The notes beneath the pieces are model-generated. The model was not told the DNA's origin. It searched no databases and saw nothing but the letters and a program-made list of their open reading frames with translations. Of a DNA stretch of 36,143 bases, positions 1,370-22,579 are shown one piece after another; the stretch's first letter is position 1; every line of letters begins with the position of its first letter. This DNA is from Gammaproteobacteria bacterium HGW-Gammaproteobacteria-3 (lineage in GTDB: Bacteria > Pseudomonadota > Gammaproteobacteria > Methylococcales > Methylomonadaceae): the NCBI GenBank assembly GCA_002843155.1, contig PGZD01000026.1, positions 1 to 36,143 of the forward strand, read 5' to 3'. The position numbers and the translations under genes were made by a program.

Positions 1370-2314
1370 TCATGAATTGCCATAGTCAACTGTTTGTGGC
1401 GTGATAGCCTTGATTTGTTGCCTGCTGCAAAGATATTCAGGGCGCGGCGTCAGGCCGTGGCAGGGTTCGACCACCCGATTACTGAGCGCGTTATAAACCA
1501 TGAAAACGTTGGAGCGCGGGAAAGGCGTGATATTACTGCCGGAGCCGTGCATGGTATTGCAGTCGAACACGATGACACTACCTGCTTTGCCGGTCGCCGA
1601 AACGATACCACCGCGTTGGGCCATTTGTTGCAGCAGGGCGTCACTGGGTACGCCATATTGCTGTTGTTTCAGTGATGAACGGTAATGATCCTTGGGCGTT
1701 TCTCCCTCGCACACGGCATAGTATTGATGAGAGCCGGGAATCAAAAGCAGTGGCCCGTTGTAGGGATGATTTTCGGTCAATGTGATGGACACGCTTAAAG
1801 CCCGCATTCTCGGCATACCGTCCTCAATATGCCACGTTTCAAAATCGGAATGCCAGTAAAATTCCTTGCCTCTGAAGCCCGGCTTGTAATTGACGCGGGA
1901 CTGATGAACATAAATCTCGTCAGCCAATAGATATTGCGCCAAACCGGCTAATCGGTTATCGCTCGCCAGCTTGTTAAATAACAAATTGCTTTCATGAACT
2001 TTGAAAATTGAGCGAATATCTCCGTGACCGGGTTCTCTGATAATTTCATCCGTCGTATCGGTCGCTTCGGTGCGGCGCAAACGCTCAAGTTCCGCGCTGA
2101 AAAGGGCGATTTCCCGGTCGCTGAAAATATTTTCCAGAATCACAAATCCTTGTTCCCGGTATTGTTTGACCAGCGTTGCAGCGATTGGCGCGGTTTCGTC
2201 ATCTCCGGCATACAATACCGGGTCTATTCGTTCAAGCAGGCGCGCAGGGCTGCCATCACGAGAGGGGTAAATGTCTCTAAACGGTTCGGCTGTGTATTTA
2301 TTTTCGGTAAACAT
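1370..2314 (-). CDS. ectD: Ectoine 5-hydroxylase EctD
   Basis: A 314-residue Fe(II)/2-oxoglutarate-dependent dioxygenase of the PhyH superfamily that converts ectoine to 5-hydroxyectoine in the cytoplasm. The EctD signature is intact at about 152-167 (FYWHSDFETWHIEDGMP). The HxD iron ligands are His155 and Asp157, the distal His is His256 in NTMHGSGSN, and a likely 2-oxoglutarate-binding Arg lies near 267. Length is normal for the family (about 300). It starts at ATG 2314 with only a weak ribosome-binding site. It lies downstream of ectC but is separated from it by a strong hairpin (2360-2403), so it may be expressed at a different level from ectABC. A downstream 54-aa ORF abuts its stop codon. 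Confidence 0.96.
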   Translation of the reverse strand: MFTENKYTAEPFRDIYPSRDGSPARLLERIDPVLYAGDDETAPIAATLVKQYREQGFVILENIFSDREIALFSAELERLRRTEATDTTDEIIREPGHGDIRSIFKVHESNLLFNKLASDNRLAGLAQYLLADEIYVHQSRVNYKPGFRGKEFYWHSDFETWHIEDGMPRMRALSVSITLTENHPYNGPLLLIPGSHQYYAVCEGETPKDHYRSSLKQQQYGVPSDALLQQMAQRGGIVSATGKAGSVIVFDCNTMHGSGSNITPFPRSNVFMVYNALSNRVVEPCHGLTPRPEYLCSRQQIKAITPQTVDYGNS

Positions 2315-2359
2315 AGCTTATCTGGTTTTTGTTGATGGGGTTTATACTCATCGTGGATC

Positions 2360-2403
2360 AAAATTCGGCCCCTCACCTAACGCTAGGTGAGGGGCCGAAT
2401 TTT
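2360..2403. terminator. Perfect 20-bp inverted repeat (bidirectional terminator-like hairpin) between ectC and ectD
   Basis: The left arm AAAATTCGGCCCCTCACCTA (2360-2379), loop ACGC (2380-2383) and right arm (2384-2403) form a perfect 20-bp stem. The GC-rich core flanked by A and T tracts gives a stem followed by four U residues on either strand, as in a bidirectional rho-independent terminator. It lies between ectC and ectD, which point the same way. On the minus strand it would reduce read-through into ectD, or it could act as a processing or mRNA-stabilising hairpin at the end of ectABC. Which role applies cannot be seen from the sequence. Confidence 0.75.
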
Positions 2404-2426
2404 GAAGTGCGAAAGGTTTAAATCGT

Positions 2427-2834
2427 TCAGGCGCAGGTTATTGCCTCGGCTTCCAACTCATAAGCGCCATCGGCATTGTGTACTTCCTTGCCGCTAAGGG
2501 GAGGATTAAAGACGCAGGTCATTTTCATTTCGCTAAAAGCCCGTAATATATGTTCATCATGTTGATCCAGAATATACAAGGTGCCTGGCGCAATGGAATA
2601 TTTCCTGCCGTCTGCCAGAGTTTCGACTTCGCCTTCACCGGATAGGCAATAAACCGATTCCAGATGGTTTTGATAGTGCATCCGGAAATCGGCGCCCTGA
2701 TAAATGGTGGTGATATGGAAAGAAAAGCCCATATTGTCGTCTTTTAGCAATAAGCGTGTGCTTTCCCAATTGCCATCGGGTGAAACGATGCGACGTGCGG
2801 TTTTTTCAGCTTCCGGTAAATTTCTGACTATCAT
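2427..2834 (-). CDS. ectC: L-ectoine synthase EctC
   Basis: A cupin-fold cyclase that closes N-gamma-acetyl-2,4-diaminobutyrate to ectoine with loss of water. Visible family features are the N-terminal [21 protein letters not shown], the metal-region segment [18 protein letters not shown] and [11 protein letters not shown]. Starting at ATG 2834 gives 135 residues, matching EctC lengths (about 130-137). A longer reading frame from TTG 2849 adds five residues, but the ATG gives the usual MIVRN start and has GGAA about 9 nt upstream. It is the third gene of the ectABC(D) operon, 122 nt after ectB, and is followed by the hairpin at 2360-2403. Confidence 0.96.
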
Positions 2835-2956
2835 GTTGGTTTTTTCCAAAGAGGGTTACTTCATTCCGGCTGTTGGGTTAAGGCCGGTGCTGCTGAATGA
2901 TTGGCGGCGATTGCAGCGGCTGCGAACAATCACCATCCATCGGGAAGGAGGAAGCA

Positions 2957-4264
2957 CTAGCTGGCCAGTTTCTGGGCTTCGAAATAATCTTTTTGTTCCG
3001 GTATGGACTCTTCCTTGCCGCAGACTTCCTTGATAGCCTGCTCGACGATATCGATACCTTTTTTCAGATTTTCGTCACTGATGATCAAAGGGCATAAAAA
3101 CTTGACCACATGATCATCGGCGCCGCTGGTTTCGATGATTAAGCCTTGCCTGAAAGCCCGGCGGGTAATCTTGCCGGCCAAATCGCCATTGACGCAGTTA
3201 ATGCCTTTAAACATGCCGCGGCCACGCAAGGTGAAATTGCCTTCGCCATGCAGGTCAATAATTCCCTGTAATCTTCGGGAAATATATTCTCCCTTGCGTT
3301 TGACATCTCGCGTCAAACGATCATCCGACCAGTAGTGATCAATTGCCGCCTTGGCGGTCACAAAGGCAAAGTTGTTACCCCGGAAAGTGCCGTTATGTTC
3401 GCCCGGTTTCCACAGGTCCAGTTCAGGCCGGAACAACACGACCGCGAAGGGCAAGCCGTAGCCTCCAAGGGATTTGGATAGAGTGACGATGTCAGGATTG
3501 ATGCCGGCTTCCTCGAAGCTGAAATAGGTGCCGGTGCGCCCGCAGCCTGCCTGAATATCGTCGATAATCAACAAGACTTCGTACTTGCGGCAAACCGTTT
3601 GCAAATTTCTCAACCAGGTAAAACTGGCGGCATTGATGCCGCCTTCGCCTTGTACCGTTTCGACAATGACGGCCGCCGGTTTGTCCACGCCACTACTGGA
3701 ATCGGACAAAACCTTATCCAGATAGGCGGTGGTATCGATATCGTCACCCAGATAGCCATCGTAAGGCATGCGGCTGGTGCCGCTCAGGTTGACGCCCGCC
3801 GCACCGCGATGATGCGAGTTACCGGTTGCAGCCAGAGAACCCAGGCTAACGCCATGAAAACCGTTGGTAAAAGCGATGATGTTTTCGCGTCCGGTCACGT
3901 TTCTTGCCAGTTTCAGGGCCGCTTCGACAGCATTGGTGCCGGTTGGCCCTGTGAACTGGACGACGTAATTCAAATTTCGCGGCTTGAGAATCTTCTCATT
4001 GAAGGTTTCCAGAAATTCGCCCTTGGCCTTGGTATGCAGATCCAGGCCGTGGGTTATGCCATCCTGATGGATGTATTCAAGCAGTTTTTCTTTGAAGACA
4101 GGATTGTTATGCCCATAATTCAAGGTCCCGGCGCCGGCCAAAAAATCCAGGTATTCGTTGCCTTCCTCATCGTAAAGAAATTCGCTCATGGCTTTGTTGA
4201 ATACCCGAGGAAAAGAGCGTGCATAACTCTGTACTTCTGATTCTATCTCTTCAAAAATTTTCAT
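2957..4264 (-). CDS. ectB: Diaminobutyrate--2-oxoglutarate transaminase EctB
   Basis: A 435-residue class III PLP-dependent aminotransferase that makes L-2,4-diaminobutyrate from aspartate semialdehyde using glutamate, the first committed step of ectoine synthesis. Landmarks are GPTGTNAVEAALKLAR (about 106-121, cofactor phosphate region), NGFHGVSLGSLAATGN, the Asp of IIDDIQAGCGRTG (about 233-245) and the Schiff-base Lys264 in TLSKSLGG. Length is typical (about 420-440). The ATG at 4264 has a good AGGAG sequence 7 nt upstream. It lies 52 nt downstream of ectA. No aspartokinase (ask) gene follows ectC here, unlike some ectABC-ask clusters in methanotrophs. Confidence 0.97.
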   Translation of the reverse strand: MKIFEEIESEVQSYARSFPRVFNKAMSEFLYDEEGNEYLDFLAGAGTLNYGHNNPVFKEKLLEYIHQDGITHGLDLHTKAKGEFLETFNEKILKPRNLNYVVQFTGPTGTNAVEAALKLARNVTGRENIIAFTNGFHGVSLGSLAATGNSHHRGAAGVNLSGTSRMPYDGYLGDDIDTTAYLDKVLSDSSSGVDKPAAVIVETVQGEGGINAASFTWLRNLQTVCRKYEVLLIIDDIQAGCGRTGTYFSFEEAGINPDIVTLSKSLGGYGLPFAVVLFRPELDLWKPGEHNGTFRGNNFAFVTAKAAIDHYWSDDRLTRDVKRKGEYISRRLQGIIDLHGEGNFTLRGRGMFKGINCVNGDLAGKITRRAFRQGLIIETSGADDHVVKFLCPLIISDENLKKGIDIVEQAIKEVCGKEESIPEQKDYFEAQKLAS

Positions 4265-4316
4265 GGGTTATTCTCCTGTATGCGGTTAAATTAGAACTGC
4301 CATTGCTATGGCTGCG

Positions 4317-4823
4317 TCAGCCGATCGGGCCAATCCTGACCAGCATTTCCGTATCATGGACATTATTGAAATGGCGCTCGCGCTCGAATAGCGTCGAGCT
4401 TTTTAATTCGCAATCCAACTTATGCGCCAAACCTTGAAACAAAGCCCATGATGCTTGATTGGTTTCGGTGATTGTGGTTTCCAGATACCGGACCTTGTTG
4501 CATTTTGGCCGCGCCAGGATGTGCCCTAACATTTGCTTCGCCAAGCCTTTGCCCCTGGCATTTTGGCTCACCGCGACCTGCCAAACGAACAAAGTGTCCT
4601 GATGCTCCGGAAGCAGATAGCCGGAAATGAATCCGGCCAGTTTATCGCCGTAAACAGCGGCTACCGAAGTGGCGGCAAAATGACTGCATTGCAGCAGATT
4701 GCAATACAGCGAGTTTGGATCCAGAGGCGCGCATTCGGCAATCAGCCTGAAAACCGCCGCGCCGTCTTCGGCTGACGGCGGACGCAGTTCCAGGGGCATG
4801 TTGTCGATGTTCGCCTCATTCAT
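4317..4823 (-). CDS. ectA: L-2,4-diaminobutyric acid N-gamma-acetyltransferase EctA
   Basis: A GNAT-fold acetyltransferase that transfers acetyl from acetyl-CoA to the gamma-amino group of 2,4-diaminobutyrate. Characteristic segments are LRPPSAEDGAAVFRLIAECAPLDPNSLYCN, FVWQVAVSQNARGKGLAKQM (acetyl-CoA-binding Q/RxxGxG/A loop) and YLETTITETNQASWALFQG. Starting at ATG 4823 gives 168 residues; a TTG at 4838 would add five and an ATG at 4801 would remove seven. None has a strong ribosome-binding site, so the exact start is uncertain. It is the first gene of the operon, transcribed away from ectR across a shared AT-rich region that holds a putative EctR operator. Confidence 0.94.
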   Translation of the reverse strand: MNEANIDNMPLELRPPSAEDGAAVFRLIAECAPLDPNSLYCNLLQCSHFAATSVAAVYGDKLAGFISGYLLPEHQDTLFVWQVAVSQNARGKGLAKQMLGHILARPKCNKVRYLETTITETNQASWALFQGLAHKLDCELKSSTLFERERHFNNVHDTEMLVRIGPIG

Positions 4824-4926
4824 AACTATACGAATCAATTTGTTTATATCACTAACTAATTAGCATTCAATAATATAAAAAATAACCGTTTTTTCATTAA
4901 ATAGTAAAGAAAAATAAATTATATAA

Positions 4927-5166: not shown

Positions 5167-5706
5167 TTGGAACGTATCGAAGAAGTACTCATTGCTCTGC
5201 GCCGCATCATCAGGGCGACCGATCTTCACTCAAAATATCTTGCCAGGACTACCGGCCTGACTGCGCCGCAAATTTTGTTGTTGAAAACGATACGAGGTAA
5301 AGGCCAGGCGACCATTGGCGAATTGGCAAGCGACATTAGTCTCAGTCAGGCGACCGTGACCACGATCCTGGATCGCCTGGAAAAACGCCACCTGGTCTAT
5401 CGGGAACGCTCGACAGCAGATAAGCGCAAAGTGCACGTACACCTGACGGAACAGGCAATCGAAGTTTTGAAACATGCGCCCATTCCGTTGCAGGATCAAT
5501 TTACCCGACAATTTGAGCTGTTGCAGGAATGGGAGCAAACCATGATCATTTCAGCATTGCAACGGCTGGCTCGGATGATGGATGCGCAGGACATCGATGC
5601 GGCGCCTGTTTTGGATATAGGCACGTTGGATCGATACGGCAGTGTCCCTGAGAATCAGGAAATAGATGATGAATCCGGTGAAGAAGAGCCGGGACCGAAA
5701 AATTGA
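5167..5706 (+). CDS. ectR: MarR-family transcriptional regulator of ectoine synthesis, EctR
   Basis: A 179-residue winged-helix regulator. The segment from about residue 34 (ILLLKTIRGKGQATIGELASDISLSQATVTTILDRLEKRHLVYRERSTADKRKVHVHLTEQ, given here by its extent, residues about 36-96) is a standard MarR domain, with the DxR-type wing motif at TADKRK. The C-terminal tail is acidic (DDESGEEEPG). The start is TTG 5167, preceded by AAAGGA at 7 nt spacing. It is divergent from ectABCD, and the 18-bp site at 4927-4944 matches the known methanotroph EctR operator type, so it most likely represses ectA under low salt. Known EctR proteins in methylotrophs have this arrangement. Confidence 0.92.
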   Translation: MERIEEVLIALRRIIRATDLHSKYLARTTGLTAPQILLLKTIRGKGQATIGELASDISLSQATVTTILDRLEKRHLVYRERSTADKRKVHVHLTEQAIEVLKHAPIPLQDQFTRQFELLQEWEQTMIISALQRLARMMDAQDIDAAPVLDIGTLDRYGSVPENQEIDDESGEEEPGPKN

Positions 5707-12399: not shown

Positions 12400-12867
12400 A
12401 TGGAAACCAAGCCGCCTCTGCCGCCTTTTACTGTTGAAACCGCCGCACAAAAAGTACGCATGGCCGAAGACGCCTGGAACAGCCGCGATCCCGATCGTGT
12501 CGTCCAGGTTTATAGCGAAGATACCCGCTGGCGTAACCGCGCCGAATTTCCGGTCGGGCGCGAGGCCGTGCATGCTTTTTTGACGCGTAAGTGGGCCAGA
12601 GAGCTGGATTATCGCCTGATCAAGGAGTTGTGGGCCGCAGCCGACAACCGTATCGCGGTGCGCTTTGCCTACGAATGGCGCGATGATTCCGGGCACTGGT
12701 TTCGCAGCTACGGCAACGAAAATTGGGAATTCAACGAATCCGGCCTGATGCAACGGCGTTTTGCCAGTATCAACGATTTACCGATCAGCGCTGAAGAGCG
12801 TCTGTTTCACTGGCCGCTCGGTCGCCGTCCGGACGATCATCCGGGCTTATCCGATCTGGGTTTATGA
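12400..12867 (+). CDS. DUF1348 (SnoaL/NTF2-like) protein
   Basis: 155 residues, almost full-length match in memory to the DUF1348 family: [64 protein letters not shown] and the terminal [19 protein letters not shown]. The fold is an NTF2-like alpha+beta cone with a hydrophobic pocket; the biochemical role is not established. The ATG has GGAG 8 nt upstream. It ends 13 bp before the DUF447 gene, so the two may be co-transcribed, although a functional link is not evident. Confidence 0.88.
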
Positions 12868-12880
12868 GCCGCACTGCTGT

Positions 12881-13447
12881 ATGATTCTGGAAACGCTGGT
12901 TACCAGCCGGAATGAGCAAGGGTTGACGCATCTGGCGCCGATGGGTATTCATGACCAAGGTGATCGGGAATTGATTATTTTGCCGTTTCGCCCTTCCACG
13001 ACACTCGACAATGTTTTGGCGACTGGTGTCGCCGTCATCAATTTTTGTGACGATGTCAGGATTTTTGCCGGGTGTTTGACCGGTCGCCGGGATTGGCCGT
13101 TAGTAGCGGCTGAAAAGATTCAGGGCGAGGTGCTGGCAGACACGCTGGCGCACATCGAAGTGGCATTGACGCGCGTCGAGGACGACCCGATTCGGCCGAA
13201 ACTCTACTGCCGCACCGTGCACAGTGTCAACCACGCGCCGTTTCGAGGTTTTAACCGGGCCCAGTACGCAGTGCTGGAAGCGGCGATTCTGGTCAGCCGA
13301 CTGTCTCTGCTGTCTCGGGATAAAATCGAGGCGGAACTGAAATTTTTACGCATAGGCCTGGAAAAAACCGCAGGCCCCAGGGAGCTTGAAGCCTGGTACT
13401 GGCTGATGGCCGTCATCGAACAACACCAAGGAGAGAACGCAGCATGA
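12881..13447 (+). CDS. DUF447 protein, associated with tetrahydromethanopterin-linked C1 metabolism
   Basis: A 188-residue protein resembling DUF447, a family with a flavin-reductase-like split-barrel fold shared by methanogenic archaea and H4MPT-containing methylotrophs. Typical segments are LETLVTSRNEQGLTHLAPMG, VAVINFCDDVRIFAGCLTGR and RTVHSVNHAPFRGFNRAQYA. I chose ATG 12881 because the frame upstream of it (an ATG at 12761) runs inside the DUF1348 gene and has no family similarity. It overlaps mfnB by 4 nt (ATGA). Its neighbour makes a furan precursor of methanofuran, which supports a role in C1-carrier cofactor biosynthesis; the exact reaction is unknown to me. Confidence 0.8.
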   Translation: MILETLVTSRNEQGLTHLAPMGIHDQGDRELIILPFRPSTTLDNVLATGVAVINFCDDVRIFAGCLTGRRDWPLVAAEKIQGEVLADTLAHIEVALTRVEDDPIRPKLYCRTVHSVNHAPFRGFNRAQYAVLEAAILVSRLSLLSRDKIEAELKFLRIGLEKTAGPRELEAWYWLMAVIEQHQGENAA

Positions 13448-14121
13448 CCGCAATGCTCGCCAGCGTCAGCAATCTGGATGAAGCGCTACAGGTTTTGGCA
13501 GTCAATGTCGGCATCATCGATCTGAAGCAACCCAGCCAAGGCGCGTTAGGTGCTTTAAGCCTCGATACGGTCAGCACTATCGTTACCGCGATAAACGGTC
13601 AATGTCCGCTCAGCGCCACTATCGGTGACCTGCCGATGCATCCCGAAGTGGTGGCGTCGGCGGTTAAACGCATGGCCGCGACCGGTGTCGATTATATCAA
13701 GATAGGCTTTTTTCCCGGCGATGACTGGCCGGGTACGCTTGAGGTTCTGGCGGAACCGGCCGCGTCCGGTCTGGCGCTGATCGCCGTGCTGTTCGCCGAT
13801 TGCCAGCCTGATTTCACGGTTTTGGGTACGTTGAAACAAGCCGGTTTTAAAGGCGTCATGATCGATACGCAAGACAAACAAAAAGGCGCGTTGACGCAAA
13901 TTCTGCCTCAAGCCGACATTAAGGCTTTTGTTGAAAAGGCGGCTCGCTACCAATTGCTCTGTGGCCTGGCCGGTTCACTCAGGCTTGAGGATATTGCGCA
14001 ATTGATAAGCTTACAACCTGATTATCTGGGATTTCGCGGTGCTTTATGCCGTCAGCATGACAGGACGGCGCAGCTTGACGAACATGCCTTGAGAGCCGTC
14101 AAGGCTCGTATGATGCAATAA
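13444..14121 (+). CDS. mfnB: (5-Formylfuran-3-yl)methyl phosphate synthase MfnB (DUF556)
   Basis: A 225-residue TIM-barrel protein of the DUF556/MfnB family. In methanogens the enzyme condenses two glyceraldehyde-3-phosphates into the furan precursor of methanofuran; methylotrophs use a homologue for their methanofuran-type cofactor. Supporting stretches are VGIIDLKQPSQGALGAL (Lys28 is the likely Schiff-base or binding lysine), LSATIGDLP, DYIKIGFFPG, GFKGVMIDTQDK and CGLAGSLRLEDI. It starts inside the stop of the DUF447 gene. The presence of this pair is one of the best indications of a methylotroph. Confidence 0.9.
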   Translation: MTAMLASVSNLDEALQVLAVNVGIIDLKQPSQGALGALSLDTVSTIVTAINGQCPLSATIGDLPMHPEVVASAVKRMAATGVDYIKIGFFPGDDWPGTLEVLAEPAASGLALIAVLFADCQPDFTVLGTLKQAGFKGVMIDTQDKQKGALTQILPQADIKAFVEKAARYQLLCGLAGSLRLEDIAQLISLQPDYLGFRGALCRQHDRTAQLDEHALRAVKARMMQ

Positions 14122-15533: not shown

Positions 15534-16160
15534 GTGTCGTGCCATAAGCCGTCGGTATCTCTTGAAATTAAGAATTTAAGTTGCATACGCGACGACCGGG
15601 TATTGTTCGAGTCGCTCGGCTTTGAGTTGGAATCCGGGCAGATATTATTGCTCGAAGGTCAAAACGGTTCGGGTAAAAGCTCCTTGTTGCGGATTTTATG
15701 CGGTTTTCGGGAACCGGATGCCGGTGAAATCCTGTGGTGCGGGCGCCAGCGTGACGATAGCGGTTTTTATCAGCAAATGGCTTATGTCGGCCATTTGGAC
15801 GGCATTAAAAAAGAATTGAGCGTCCAGGAAAATTTAGGCCTGGTAAGGGCGCTCGGCAGCCCCGGACGCTATTCGATACAACAGGCCCTGGAACAGGTTC
15901 ATTTATCCGGGTATGAAGATGTTCCCGTGCAATCACTGTCCGCCGGGCAAAGGCGCCGAATAGCTTTGTCCAGACTGTTGATTACAGACAATCGTCTGTG
16001 GATTCTGGATGAGCCTTTCACGGCGCTGGATAAAACCGGTATTGGCATTTTTGAACAATTAATGGCCGAACATGCGCAGCAAGGTGGACTGATTATGTTG
16101 ACTTCGCATCATGACCTTACTTTGGACGCACTGCCTGTGCAACATATCAGATTATCCTGA
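15534..16160 (+). CDS. ccmA: Cytochrome c maturation ABC transporter ATP-binding protein CcmA
   Basis: A 208-residue ATPase with Walker A at GQNGSGKSS (about 42-50), the signature LSAGQRRRIALSRLL and Walker B LWILDEPFTALD. With CcmB, CcmC and CcmD it releases haem-loaded CcmE in the periplasm. GTG 15534 is the only plausible start: an overlapping ATG at 15530 is in another frame and stops after five codons, and AGGA lies 9 nt upstream of the GTG. Its TGA overlaps the ccmB ATG. It is the first gene of the ccm operon. Confidence 0.96.
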   Translation: MSCHKPSVSLEIKNLSCIRDDRVLFESLGFELESGQILLLEGQNGSGKSSLLRILCGFREPDAGEILWCGRQRDDSGFYQQMAYVGHLDGIKKELSVQENLGLVRALGSPGRYSIQQALEQVHLSGYEDVPVQSLSAGQRRRIALSRLLITDNRLWILDEPFTALDKTGIGIFEQLMAEHAQQGGLIMLTSHHDLTLDALPVQHIRLS

Positions 16161-16834
16161 TGGACTTACTCAACCCTTTTTTCGCGATGATCCGGCGGGA
16201 TTTGCTTTTAGCTGTCAGGCATCGGGCTGAAAGCGCCAATCCCTTGCTGTTTTTTATTCTGGTGGTGACATTGTTTCCCTTGGGGCTTGGCGGACAAGCA
16301 AAATTATTACAAGCTATGGCGCCCGGTATTATCTGGGTCGCGGCTTTATTGGCGGTGATGCTGTCTCTGGACAGTTTGTTCCGTTCGGATTTTGACGACG
16401 GCTCGATGGAGCAGTTGGTGCTGAGTCCCTATCCTTTGTCGCTGCTGGTATTGGCCAAAATTATCGCGCATTGGCTGGTGACCGGCTTGCCTTTGTTGTT
16501 GGTTGCACCGTTGCTGGCCACGCTTTTGAATTTACCAGAGTCGGCCTTTCCCGTGCTGATGCTTACTTTACTGCTGGGTACGCCGGTGCTCAGTCTGATC
16601 GGCGCCATCGGTGTGGCGCTAACGGTCGGGCTGCGTCGCGGCGGCGTTCTTCTCGCCTTGCTGGTGTTGCCGCTGTATATTCCGGTGTTGATTTTTGCCA
16701 GTAACGCCATCGAAATGGCAGCTGGTGGTTTGCCCGTAGGGGCGCAAATTAATATGCTGATTGCGCTGTTGCTGGCGGCTTTGGTGTTGGCGCCGTTACC
16801 TGCCGCAGCGGCATTAAAGATGAGCATTAATTGA
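16160..16834 (+). CDS. ccmB: Cytochrome c maturation ABC permease CcmB
   Basis: A 224-residue integral membrane protein with six predicted transmembrane segments. Family features are the N-terminal IRRDLLLAVRHRAESANPLLFF, the FRSDFDDGSMEQLVLSPYPL loop, and LRRGGVLLALLVLPLYIPVLIF. It is the membrane partner of CcmA. The start overlaps the ccmA stop by one base (TGATG). The next gene, 51 bp on, is not ccmC but a ferritin-like protein. Confidence 0.96.
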   Translation: MDLLNPFFAMIRRDLLLAVRHRAESANPLLFFILVVTLFPLGLGGQAKLLQAMAPGIIWVAALLAVMLSLDSLFRSDFDDGSMEQLVLSPYPLSLLVLAKIIAHWLVTGLPLLLVAPLLATLLNLPESAFPVLMLTLLLGTPVLSLIGAIGVALTVGLRRGGVLLALLVLPLYIPVLIFASNAIEMAAGGLPVGAQINMLIALLLAALVLAPLPAAAALKMSIN

Positions 16835-16885
16835 ATTCTACCGTAAAATAGTGTCTATAACGTTATTTAAATTTGGGAGCAAAAA

Positions 16886-17779
16886 ATGGTTTCGGGCAAA
16901 TATCTTTCGGTTTTTTCGCCGGCGACAGCGCAGCAAAGGCAACAAAATTTTGAAAATTACTGGGTGTTTACCCAACAACACGGCGGCGAATTATTCGAGG
17001 CGGATAAAGATCTGGCCAAAAAACGCGCTAAGTTACAGTATTTTAAAGATAGCCCGGTCAGTTTGCGTAAGCCTTTGGCCGACACCGATGCTTTTTACCG
17101 CAATTACATTAAAATGCAGGATGATCCGGGTAAGCTCGAACGCCTGACCTTGATGCTGACCGCCATTTATAAGTTTGCCCGGCATGAATGGGTCGGCATT
17201 AAGGGCGCCTGGGATGCGGTACCTGATATGGCCAACTCTCACAGCGTCGAAGATAAGATCAGCCGGGTGCATCTGGCGGAAGAATTCTGTCATGTCCGCT
17301 TGTTTGATGAAATGCTAAGAACGTGTGGTCTCGATAACGTGGAATGGGTGCCCTTAGGTCCCATCAAAGAAAAAATTTACCAGCAGTTTCCAAAATTTCC
17401 GGGTTTTTTAATGGATACACCGGCTTTTGTCACAGAATTGATGGGGGTGACTTTTTATCGCCATCTGGACCGCTTATTCGACGATATTCTGGCCGATGAA
17501 CCTGAAGTCAAAGAAAGACTGAAAGCCTTGCTCGATGAAATTACCATCGACGAAGTGGCGCATGTGGGGCAGAGACGAAATTTTATCGGCCCGGTCGGCA
17601 CAAAAGTTTCCTATTGGTTGGTGAAACCTTTCTACACGCTGTTTTTTAATGATATTCCAGAAATAAAACATTTATTCGATCTTCAGCAGATGATTAAAGA
17701 CGGGCAGGCTTTCGATTTTAACGAGCTGCCGGAGTCGATGATCGAGCGAAGCTGGATTCCTTCTTACTGCAAGGCTTGA
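16886..17779 (+). CDS. Di-iron ferritin-like protein of unknown function inside the ccm operon
   Basis: A 297-residue soluble protein with no signal peptide. Four helices carry the ligand set expected for a carboxylate-bridged di-iron centre: Glu101 (ARHEW), Glu133 and His136 (EEFCH, first ExxH), Glu184 (FVTELMG), and Glu223 and His226 (DEVAH, second ExxH). This resembles ferritin-like or AurF-type oxygenase folds, but I do not recognise a named family. GGGAG stands 5-10 nt upstream of ATG 16886. It sits between ccmB and ccmC, a position normally occupied by no gene, and the same strand and short gaps suggest co-transcription. A part in haem/iron handling, cytochrome redox control or an unrelated oxygenation are all possible. 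Confidence 0.85.
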   Translation: MVSGKYLSVFSPATAQQRQQNFENYWVFTQQHGGELFEADKDLAKKRAKLQYFKDSPVSLRKPLADTDAFYRNYIKMQDDPGKLERLTLMLTAIYKFARHEWVGIKGAWDAVPDMANSHSVEDKISRVHLAEEFCHVRLFDEMLRTCGLDNVEWVPLGPIKEKIYQQFPKFPGFLMDTPAFVTELMGVTFYRHLDRLFDDILADEPEVKERLKALLDEITIDEVAHVGQRRNFIGPVGTKVSYWLVKPFYTLFFNDIPEIKHLFDLQQMIKDGQAFDFNELPESMIERSWIPSYCKA

Positions 17780-17828
17780 AAAGTGGTTGAATGAGTCTTT
17801 TTCAGAAAAATAATTTTTATCAGTCAAT

Positions 17829-18590
17829 ATGTTTTTGGTACCCGATTCAGTAGGCCGTTTTTTTCACCGCATGGCCTCGCCGCCGCATTTTTATGCGTTC
17901 AGTGGGCGCCTTATGCCCTGGCTCGGCGTCATTTTCTTGTTGCTGGTGGGGGCGGGTTTATACGGCGGTCTGGTGTTGGCGCCGCCGGATTATCAGCAAG
18001 GTGATAGTTACCGGATTATTTATATCCATGTCCCCAGCGCCTGGATGTCATTGTTCATTTATGTGATGATGGCCGCCGCCGGCGTTATCGGTCTGGTTTG
18101 GCGTATCAAGCTGGCCGAAATCGTGGCCATCAGCAGTGCGCCGGTCGGCGCCGCTTTCACTTTTATCGCCCTGGTCACGGGGTCTTTGTGGGGCAAGCCG
18201 ATGTGGGGCACCTGGTGGGTATGGGATGCCCGTTTGACTTCAGAATTGATTCTGTTGTTTTTATACCTGGGCGTCATGGCGCTTTACAGCGCCATCGACG
18301 ACAAGCGGGTGGCATCTAAAGCCGTGGCTATTCTGGCTCTGGTTGGCGTCGTTAATATCCCCGTCATTCATTATTCAGTGGAATGGTGGAATACTCTGCA
18401 TCAAGGGCCGACCGTCACTAAAATGGACAAGCCTTCGATTCACATCAGTATGCTGGTGCCGTTGCTGACCATGGCGGTGGCTTTCAAGTTTTATTATCTG
18501 ATTGCCATGCTGCAAAGAGCGCGTACCGAATTATTGCAGCGCGAACGCAACAGCCAATGGTTGAAAAAATTACTGGAGAGCGAAGGATGA
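17829..18590 (+). CDS. ccmC: Haem exporter/assembly protein CcmC
   Basis: A 253-residue six-helix membrane protein of the haem-handling family. The tryptophan-rich WWD motif is present (GTWWVWDARLTSELILLFLY), flanked by the two haem-ligand histidines in YIHVPSAWM and IHYSVEWWNTLHQ. CcmC passes haem to CcmE. ATG 17829 gives an N-terminus containing ASPPHFYAFSGRLMPWLG, typical of the family; its ribosome-binding site is weak. It overlaps ccmD by 4 nt. Confidence 0.96.
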   Translation: MFLVPDSVGRFFHRMASPPHFYAFSGRLMPWLGVIFLLLVGAGLYGGLVLAPPDYQQGDSYRIIYIHVPSAWMSLFIYVMMAAAGVIGLVWRIKLAEIVAISSAPVGAAFTFIALVTGSLWGKPMWGTWWVWDARLTSELILLFLYLGVMALYSAIDDKRVASKAVAILALVGVVNIPVIHYSVEWWNTLHQGPTVTKMDKPSIHISMLVPLLTMAVAFKFYYLIAMLQRARTELLQRERNSQWLKKLLESEG

Positions 18591-21275: not shown

Positions 21276-21795
21276 ATACAGCGTGCCGTTAGTAATTTTT
21301 ATCGTGCTGGCCATTTTTCTGGCTTTGGGGCTCACGCTCAACCCGCGCGAAATTCCGTCACCGTTAATCGATAAACCGGCTCCGACATTTTCCCTGCCGC
21401 GTTTGCAAAACCCTGAACAAAGCTTGAGTCCGTCCGATTTAAAAGGCCAGGTCTGGCTGCTCAACGTTTGGGCTTCGTGGTGCGTATCGTGTCGGGCCGA
21501 ACATCCGGTTCTGAATCGATTGGCGCAACAAAAATTGGCTGTTATCATCGGCTTGAACTATAAAGACGAAAGCGATTCGGCAAAAAACTGGTTGAGTCAT
21601 TGGGGCAATCCCTATGATGCCAGTGTCGTCGATGCCGAAGGACGCGCCGGTATCGACTGGGGTGTTTACGGTGTGCCCGAAACCTTTGTGATGGACAAAC
21701 AGGGACGGGTTCGTTACAAGCATACCGGCCCGATAACGGATGACGATAGCGTGGAAATTTTTATTCCTCTTATTCAGAAATTACAACAGGAATGA
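21268..21795 (+). CDS. ccmG: Thiol:disulfide oxidoreductase CcmG (DsbE)
   Basis: A 175-residue thioredoxin-fold protein anchored by an N-terminal helix (about 5-24). The active site is WCVSC (Cys72, Cys75) in NVWASWCVSCRAEHP; the cis-Pro loop is GVYGVPETFVMD. It reduces apocytochrome CxxCH motifs in the periplasm before haem attachment. The central active-site dipeptide is Val-Ser rather than the commoner Pro-Thr/Tyr. The start overlaps ccmF; its stop overlaps a possible 13-codon ORF (21792-21833). Confidence 0.95.
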   Translation: MFKYSVPLVIFIVLAIFLALGLTLNPREIPSPLIDKPAPTFSLPRLQNPEQSLSPSDLKGQVWLLNVWASWCVSCRAEHPVLNRLAQQKLAVIIGLNYKDESDSAKNWLSHWGNPYDASVVDAEGRAGIDWGVYGVPETFVMDKQGRVRYKHTGPITDDDSVEIFIPLIQKLQQE

Positions 21796-21829
21796 CAGAC
21801 CGAGAGACAGCTTACGTGCGTGTATTCAT

Positions 21830-22579
21830 GTGATTAAACATCTCATTATTCTATTGTCGGTTACTGTTTATGCAGTTGCCGCGCAAGCGGCGAATGTGGC
21901 CTATCGCAGCAACGATGAACTGGATCCAGCCGATGCGACTTTCCCGACCAGCAGTCTCATGCACGGCGCCTTGACCCATGCAGGCGGCGATAGCGAAGCT
22001 TCGCCAATCAGTCCAGAGCAAAAAATCGACGAGACGATAATAAAGGCCGAACAGAAAAAAGAGGAGACAACAGCTCAAGCGGCTTTCGACCCGTTTGTAC
22101 CGAATGCCCGGGACGCTGAAATGACCGGTTTTGATTATTATGGCAATCCGCAAAGCCAGTTTAAACTGATCAAAGACTCCCGGGAGTTAATAGGTAAGCT
22201 CGGTGACGATGACGAGGCTTTGATCGCTGTTTTTGACGATACCTTGACACTGGCGCAGCAAGTCAATGAGTTCTGGAACAGTCTCGACAGCCAGCTTACC
22301 GTCAAGTTTTATCAAGGACTGGATTATGTGGGCGTCAGCGATAGCTTTGACGCGGGTGACAACCTTAATAATAGACAAAACACAGCGGCTTTCAACGATG
22401 AGATTTTAGAAATCAAGCTAATGCCCGAAGCCACTGATGCCCCAGCCAGCGGCGTTCACAGTTTTATGTTGAAGCTGCCCCGGCTTCTGACGATCAACAA
22501 CATACTTTTGTCCATACTTGCACTGCTGACATGCAATGGCCTGTTCAGAGTTATGCGCTTTGTTCTGCTGCGGCTATAA
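21830..22579 (+). CDS. Exported/membrane protein of unknown function between ccmG and ccmH
   Basis: Predicted 249 residues from GTG 21830, the only in-frame start after ccmG. It gives a convincing signal peptide (MIKHLIILLSVTVYAVAAQA, cleavage after AQA). The mature part is acidic, with a Glu/Lys/Gln-rich linker (about 60-85), a globular segment around FDYYGNPQSQFKLIKDSREL and, near the C-terminus (about 217-240), a second hydrophobic span followed by basic residues. The expected topology is mostly periplasmic with a C-terminal membrane anchor. I recognise no family. Its place inside the ccm operon suggests a role at the haem-ligation stage or in a specific c-type cytochrome, but this is inference. 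Confidence 0.75.
   Translation: MIKHLIILLSVTVYAVAAQAANVAYRSNDELDPADATFPTSSLMHGALTHAGGDSEASPISPEQKIDETIIKAEQKKEETTAQAAFDPFVPNARDAEMTGFDYYGNPQSQFKLIKDSRELIGKLGDDDEALIAVFDDTLTLAQQVNEFWNSLDSQLTVKFYQGLDYVGVSDSFDAGDNLNNRQNTAAFNDEILEIKLMPEATDAPASGVHSFMLKLPRLLTINNILLSILALLTCNGLFRVMRFVLLRL

Follow-up and report, generated by a model that had tools for sequence, protein, structure and literature searches.

Genetic Setting of X

The gene considered here, termed X, is located in a stretch of 36,143 nucleotides (contig PGZD01000026.1 of Gammaproteobacteria bacterium HGW-Gammaproteobacteria-3, Methylococcales) that was analysed as a whole and is referred to as the window. A first-pass annotation had pointed to an open reading frame with a full set of di-iron ligands between the cytochrome c maturation genes ccmB and ccmC; the frame is real, and both of its neighbours are assigned by Pfam (Table 1). 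The names ccmA and ccmG are positional, because Pfam returns general models only at these two genes. The gap between ccmB and X measures 51 nt and that between X and ccmC 49 nt, whereas the pairs ccmA/ccmB and ccmC/ccmD overlap. In our reading, ccmB and ccmC are context and lie outside the unit formed by X.

Table 1. Location of X, its upstream element, and the neighbouring ccm genes in the window.
Feature	Position	Strand	Remark
ccmA	15534		named by position; Pfam gives the general ABC ATPase model only
ccmB	16160..16834	+	upstream neighbour of X; Pfam CcmB, 5.7e-79
candidate promoter element belonging to X (ACCGTAAAAT)	16840..16849	+	starts 46 nt before the ATG
X	16886..17779 (stop codon included)	+	ATG open reading frame; predicted soluble di-metal oxidase of 297 aa
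ccmC	17829..18590	+	downstream neighbour of X; Pfam Cytochrom_C_asm, 7.1e-39
ccmD	18587		Pfam
ccmE	18750		Pfam
ccmF	19263		Pfam
ccmG	21268		named by position; Pfam gives redoxin/thioredoxin models only
ccmH	22610		Pfam
ccmI	23065		Pfam
hemN	24261		Pfam; 3' of the ccm operon

The ccm region holds an additional open reading frame of 279 aa between ccmG and ccmH (21740–22579, forward strand), which gave no Pfam match at E ≤ 0.001, no PADLOC match, and no reported tblastn match in the loci of relatives. Just upstream of the ccm genes (12851–14121, forward strand), genes for a DUF447 protein and a 4-HFC-P synthase (MfnB-like) adjoin each other, a pair of furan-cofactor synthesis genes that is also adjoining in locus L034. 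On the reverse strand (1370–4838), open reading frames resembling ectoine hydroxylase, EctB, and EctA were recognized by eye, with a MarR-like regulator frame at 5167.

Conserved Putative Ligands and Predicted Fold

Conservation was assessed over 99 rows, namely the window, 17 regions, 80 loci from a two-peptide scan (see below), and locus L118, which reduce to 89 distinct sequences on account of ten duplicate pairs. The putative ligand set named at the outset (E101, E133/H136, E184, and E223/H226) is present as claimed and also conserved in homologues, all six residues being invariant in 18 of 18 aligned proteins and in 99/99 rows. The same holds across the 99 rows for H100, H129, E132, and Phe140, and at the C-terminus for W290, P292, Y294, and C295, where we would guess at a role in partner binding or electron transfer. 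Purifying selection acts on X: dN/dS amounts to 0.02–0.08 in 7 of 12 pairs, with synonymous sites saturated in four of the twelve (three involving the window, one Nitrosospira–Nitrosospira).

The structure prediction that had been proposed for the di-iron site was carried out with AlphaFold2, with the alignment of 18 rows as input. Out of five models, the top one reached a mean pLDDT of 93.7 and a pTM of 0.91 (pLDDT of the remaining four: 93.2, 87.7, 84.6, and 76.6) and has an R2/ferritin-like fold with one of the four ligand glutamates on each of four long helices: E101 in helix 86–111, E133/H136 in 121–146, E184 in 173–201, and E223/H226 in 206–231. Judged by residues and predicted helices, Glu, ExxH, Glu, and ExxH thus follow one another on successive helices of a four-helix bundle. 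This succession is the ligand scheme of the ferritin superfamily, and by ligand order and modelled helices X appears to belong to the di-iron ferritin-like/R2-like superfamily.

Relation to Known Di-iron Families

A Foldseek search with the model of X gave nothing at E ≤ 0.001, and a sequence search of the PDB, in which R2lox is present, returned nothing below E 0.05. Kinship to R2-type proteins consequently rests on fold comparison at 8–13 % identity. For this purpose VIA-align was run on Foldseek's list; among the best 50 rows considered, the top matches were R2lox (Z 14.6), human ribonucleotide reductase R2 (Z 13.8), and stearoyl-ACP desaturase (Z 13.2). These scores are close to the level that is common among helical bundles, for which a Z below roughly 13 can be of little significance.

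The likeness to R2lox, a protein with a Mn/Fe cofactor and a Tyr–Val ether cross-link, extends over 226 residues, and X is likewise predicted to be a soluble protein of a single gene; however, the two are only 10–12 % identical and are not connected by a PDB sequence match. The metal ligands of R2lox are reported to be four Glu and two His, for which X has six such candidates, and the protein to hold a long-chain fatty acid (PMC6399176); one member has been reported as an alkane hydroxylase (PMC10867098). The desaturase resembles X over 225 residues and shares two ExxH motifs, but again differs in sequence (12–13 % identity, no PDB sequence match). In class Ia R2 proteins, the radical Tyr is found four residues after the His of the first ExxH motif. 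X instead has Phe140 at this distance from H136 in 99/99 rows, and no gene for a ribonucleotide reductase large subunit was seen by eye among the neighbours of X at its loci.

The Pfam family AurF (PF11583) gave weak matches in 16 of 18 members (best E 2.7e-4); the window protein stays below threshold (15 bits versus a gathering cut-off of 29.6, E 0.014), as does that of G068 (23 bits). When X was compared by profile with six AurF relatives found elsewhere in the Gammaproteobacteria, the motifs came out in colinear order, but weakly (probability 6.6 %). In these relatives a His, the third His ligand of AurF, is invariant (6/6) four residues before the last ExxH Glu, whereas X has Ile219 at the place of this extra helix-D His in 99/99 rows, as far as the weak alignment goes. 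An AurF gene was not found in the window's own genome. DUF455 was matched by 3/18 members (best E 0.0028), Ferritin_2 and Ferritin-like by 1/18 each (E 0.23 and 0.19); in NCBIfam, the window protein had no match and the 18 members gave two stray ones (E 0.082 and 0.19). No Pfam or NCBIfam family assignment covers X, and no description of it was found in the literature searched, with subscription journals outside reach. Within the well-known R2/ferritin-like superfamily, X forms a new branch, and one whose distribution is unusual.

Occurrence

Within the window's own genome and 40 relatives, full-length X is present in 18/41, and one further genome (G001) has a remnant only. A scan with two short peptides across the genome contigs of 84,980 species yielded 195 stretches, of which 144 encode relatives of X. 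Eighty of these were kept; by record title, 53 are Methylococcales, 16 Nitrosospira or Nitrosomonas, 10 "uncultured proteobacterium", and one "Gammaproteobacteria bacterium". Over the order Methylococcales, full X occurs in 54/161 genomes and remnants alone in three more (G001, G503, and G504); as 107/161 are devoid of a full copy, X is not needed for methane oxidation. In the Nitrosospira family, 31/100 genomes gave a match (28 full-length, three pieces in G583, G584, and G601). Elsewhere the gene is rare, with 1/368 other genomes in a sample of the class that includes a few Methylococcales (the exception being G068) and 0/397 other Pseudomonadota in a partly overlapping sample of the phylum; phyla beyond Pseudomonadota were covered by the two-peptide scan alone. 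Carriage by phages or plasmids was not borne out: a two-peptide scan of viral contigs gave no match, and X was not matched in plasmids either. PADLOC gave no match to it as a defence gene.

Three genomes carry two full-length copies (G442, G532, and G533). Pieces of the 3' end were noted in G021 (L033, 17758–17904) and G537 (L122, 7545–7748), where they lie about 8.3 kb and about 25 kb, respectively, downstream of a full copy, and on their own in G584 (L125, 16177–16395). These prompted the idea that the 3' end of X serves as an integration site for genomic islands, which may still apply but was set aside, since the remnants at ccm can be explained without one.

Genomic Position and the ccm Genes

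Counted over all 99 rows, the window and 36 others have both ccmB and ccmC within 3.5 kb of X, five have ccmC only, and 57 neither. Among the 89 distinct sequences, 31 lie between ccmB and ccmC, four beside ccmC alone, and 54 elsewhere (16 of them from named ammonia oxidisers), with the proviso that some contigs end near X on one side and a few of the "elsewhere" rows rest on a single flank. The ccmB–X–ccmC order is thus real and recurrent in many Methylococcales, but a minority arrangement, and most relatives carry the gene beside neither ccmB nor ccmC. As the order is common to rows from several parts of the tree, the address is old, and we regard the gap between ccmB and ccmC as one long-lived address of X. 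The distance between X and the ccm genes ranges from tens of bases up to about 1.2 kb.

In two genomes of one genus (G503 and G504), a 3' remnant of X persists between ccmB and ccmC, and each gene from ccmA to ccmI, as well as hemN, gave a match that covers most of it; the decay was perhaps one event. G001, with two pieces of X just upstream of ccmC, was considered as a third loss in place and dropped, since neither ccmA nor ccmB stands beside the remnants. X as part of ccm was accordingly rejected: its position varies, it is not kept beside the ccm genes across relatives (35/89 beside ccmB and/or ccmC), and it decays in place while ccm remains. The case illustrates how an "operon" reading can mislead when a self-contained gene is lodged in ccm and can be lost without it.

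The neighbours of X away from ccm are varied. By eye, no conserved neighbour that could indicate a partner, and no gene for an electron donor or a substrate, was found among the neighbours at the loci. Nitrosospira loci have neighbours in common, as do those of some lake methanotrophs (names assigned by eye).

An Element Upstream of X

A pattern, YNYGTANAAT, was written after viewing the sequences before X and sought within 110 nt of the gene, one locus with short upstream sequence being dropped. It is present in 25/35 ccm-located and 12/33 other Methylococcales loci, counts in which related loci are not independent, and starts 40–50 nt before the start codon in every matching locus; random stretches of the same loci matched in 107/17,600 cases. 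It was found in 0/16 ammonia oxidisers and 0/4 distant relatives. The window's own element (ACCGTAAAAT) has one mismatch to that of the relatives and is not among the 37 matching loci. In 21 genomes picked since X seemed to carry the element, ATATCYCGTARAAT occurred in 18, at 19 sites: 18 on the contig with X, one per genome, and one elsewhere, with a single site for the reversed control. By these counts the element is nearly unique to X, and it may be the promoter of the gene. A scan of 16700–18000 for sigma-70 promoters and terminators gave nothing usable above shuffled sequences and did not report the element.

Phylogeny and Probable Gene Transfer

In a tree of the 89 distinct sequences, the ten Nitrosospira rows cluster together with a support of 85/86 and the six Nitrosomonas rows with one of 100/100; the two groups stand apart, with Methylococcales rows in between. 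The ammonia-oxidiser label changes at least twice by starred branches, counted against ccm-labelled rows only. Two clades of ammonia oxidisers nested in X of Methylococcales suggest that methane and ammonia oxidisers exchanged the gene in at least two transfers, the direction of which is a matter of inference, because the root is a midpoint root and several deep forks are open. X of Nitrosospira shares a median of 76 % and a maximum of 86.5 % identity with that of methanotrophs, and X of Nitrosomonas a median of 75 % and a maximum of 82 %. As a control, one other gene, NAD kinase, gave 42–43 % between five Nitrosospira and three methanotroph loci.

Copper Monooxygenases in X-Bearing Genomes

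Copper monooxygenases were searched with the families PF02461 and PF04896. PF02461 is found in 47 of the 54 Methylococcales genomes with full X, and the other seven include five with PF04896, one of them (G003) below the cut-off, and two (G522 and G033) with neither family. Since 131/161 Methylococcales have PF02461 overall, the association with X inside the order says little. Fifteen of the 16 X-bearing ammonia oxidisers were tested: PF02461 is present in five and PF04896 in seven more, and G532, G533, and G540, titled Nitrosospira or Nitrosomonas, gave neither. Several of the matches cover no more than a short stretch where a contig ends, which is to be expected when multi-copy operons are assembled in draft genomes. 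One or the other family was also found in 10 genomes of the 11 loci with uninformative titles (neither in G544, locus L093), and PF04896, the one family searched there, in 9/10 further X loci titled Methylococcales (not in G1048, locus L069). G068 carries PF02461. Hydroxylamine oxidoreductase (PF13447) was considered as a partner of X and rejected, as it occurs in 15/54 Methylococcales with full X versus 39/107 others and hence has no positive association.

Proposed Function and Alternatives

Among the roles offered in the first-pass annotation (supplying or oxidising iron, remodelling haem, protecting haem export from oxygen, or modifying a small molecule), the last survives best. On account of the ligands and the R2lox/desaturase-like fold, X would be an O2-activating oxidase of a small hydrophobic molecule; we infer metal content, O2 chemistry, electron donor, and kind of substrate alike. 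The six ligands would bind a metal pair, either two Fe or Mn together with Fe. Once reduced by a ferredoxin- or flavin-type donor of a general kind, the pair would bind O2, and X would oxidise a small, probably hydrophobic molecule inside the bundle, in the manner of R2lox and acyl-ACP desaturases. Its gene would be an accessory one in bacteria that have copper monooxygenases for methane or ammonia, and would frequently be lost, change its place in the genome, and pass between methane and ammonia oxidisers. We give roughly even chances to this reading of X as a free-standing, soluble di-metal oxidase outside ccm and accessory to copper-monooxygenase bacteria.

More tentatively, and with somewhat less than an even chance of being right, X may be an enzyme of this guild in a stricter sense, its substrate existing or mattering only in cells with a copper methane or ammonia monooxygenase; it could then be a product or by-product of the monooxygenase, or a lipid of the internal membranes. 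A substrate of this kind would account for two or more passages of the gene between methanotrophs of the Gammaproteobacteria and nitrifiers of the Betaproteobacteria, and for its near absence from the rest of the genomes searched. Should this distribution hold, X is shared and exchanged by aerobic methane and ammonia oxidisers besides the monooxygenase itself, and its substrate would point to a chemical requirement that is the same in two processes governing the release of methane and nitrous oxide.

The functional link to cytochrome c maturation that the locus had suggested, with X handling iron or oxygen at haem export and the ccmB–X–ccmC order lasting for that reason, appears very improbable to us. 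It can draw on the 35 distinct sequences at ccmB and/or ccmC, which come from several parts of the tree and share the strand of the ccm genes, and on one other X that adjoins hemN (L111); yet 54/89 lie elsewhere, the gaps can be wide, the ccm genes of G503 and G504 outlast the decayed X, two thirds of Methylococcales (107/161) manage without a full copy, and in part of the order X has its own upstream element inside and outside ccm. The address itself may nonetheless have some use, given its recurrence in several parts of the tree. A stress protein, that is, a ferritin-like protein storing iron or consuming peroxide or NO and so guarding cells rich in radicals and nitrogen oxides, would suit the ligand scheme, but we consider it unlikely, as the fold comparison places chains of R2, R2lox, and desaturases at the top and the ferritin families of Pfam are matched by single members at insignificant E values. 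One study puts a ferritin-like "rubrerythrin" at 1.2 % of the proteome in both N. ureae and N. multiformis and reports none in N. europaea (PMC5960693). Loci whose titles name the first two species contain X, which makes it a candidate for that protein (UniProt entries to compare: Q2Y7X9 and A0A0S3AFT3); if the two are the same, X would account for about 1.2 % of two ammonia-oxidiser proteomes.

X-bearing organisms are able to make hydroxylamine, and a role as an AurF-like N-oxygenase with an amine or hydroxylamine as substrate, which might for instance remove toxic hydroxylamine formed from ammonia by copper monooxygenases, would agree with this and with the weak AurF matches of 16/18 members. 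We nevertheless find it decidedly unlikely in view of the sub-threshold score of the window protein, the low probability of the profile comparison, the invariant Ile219 at the place of the relatives' invariant His (in a weak alignment), and the missing positive association with hydroxylamine oxidoreductase. A loss of catalytic activity, with X now serving a structural or regulatory role as a partner, would fit loci with no donor or substrate gene beside it, but is improbable in the extreme, as all six ligands are invariant in every one of the 99 rows.
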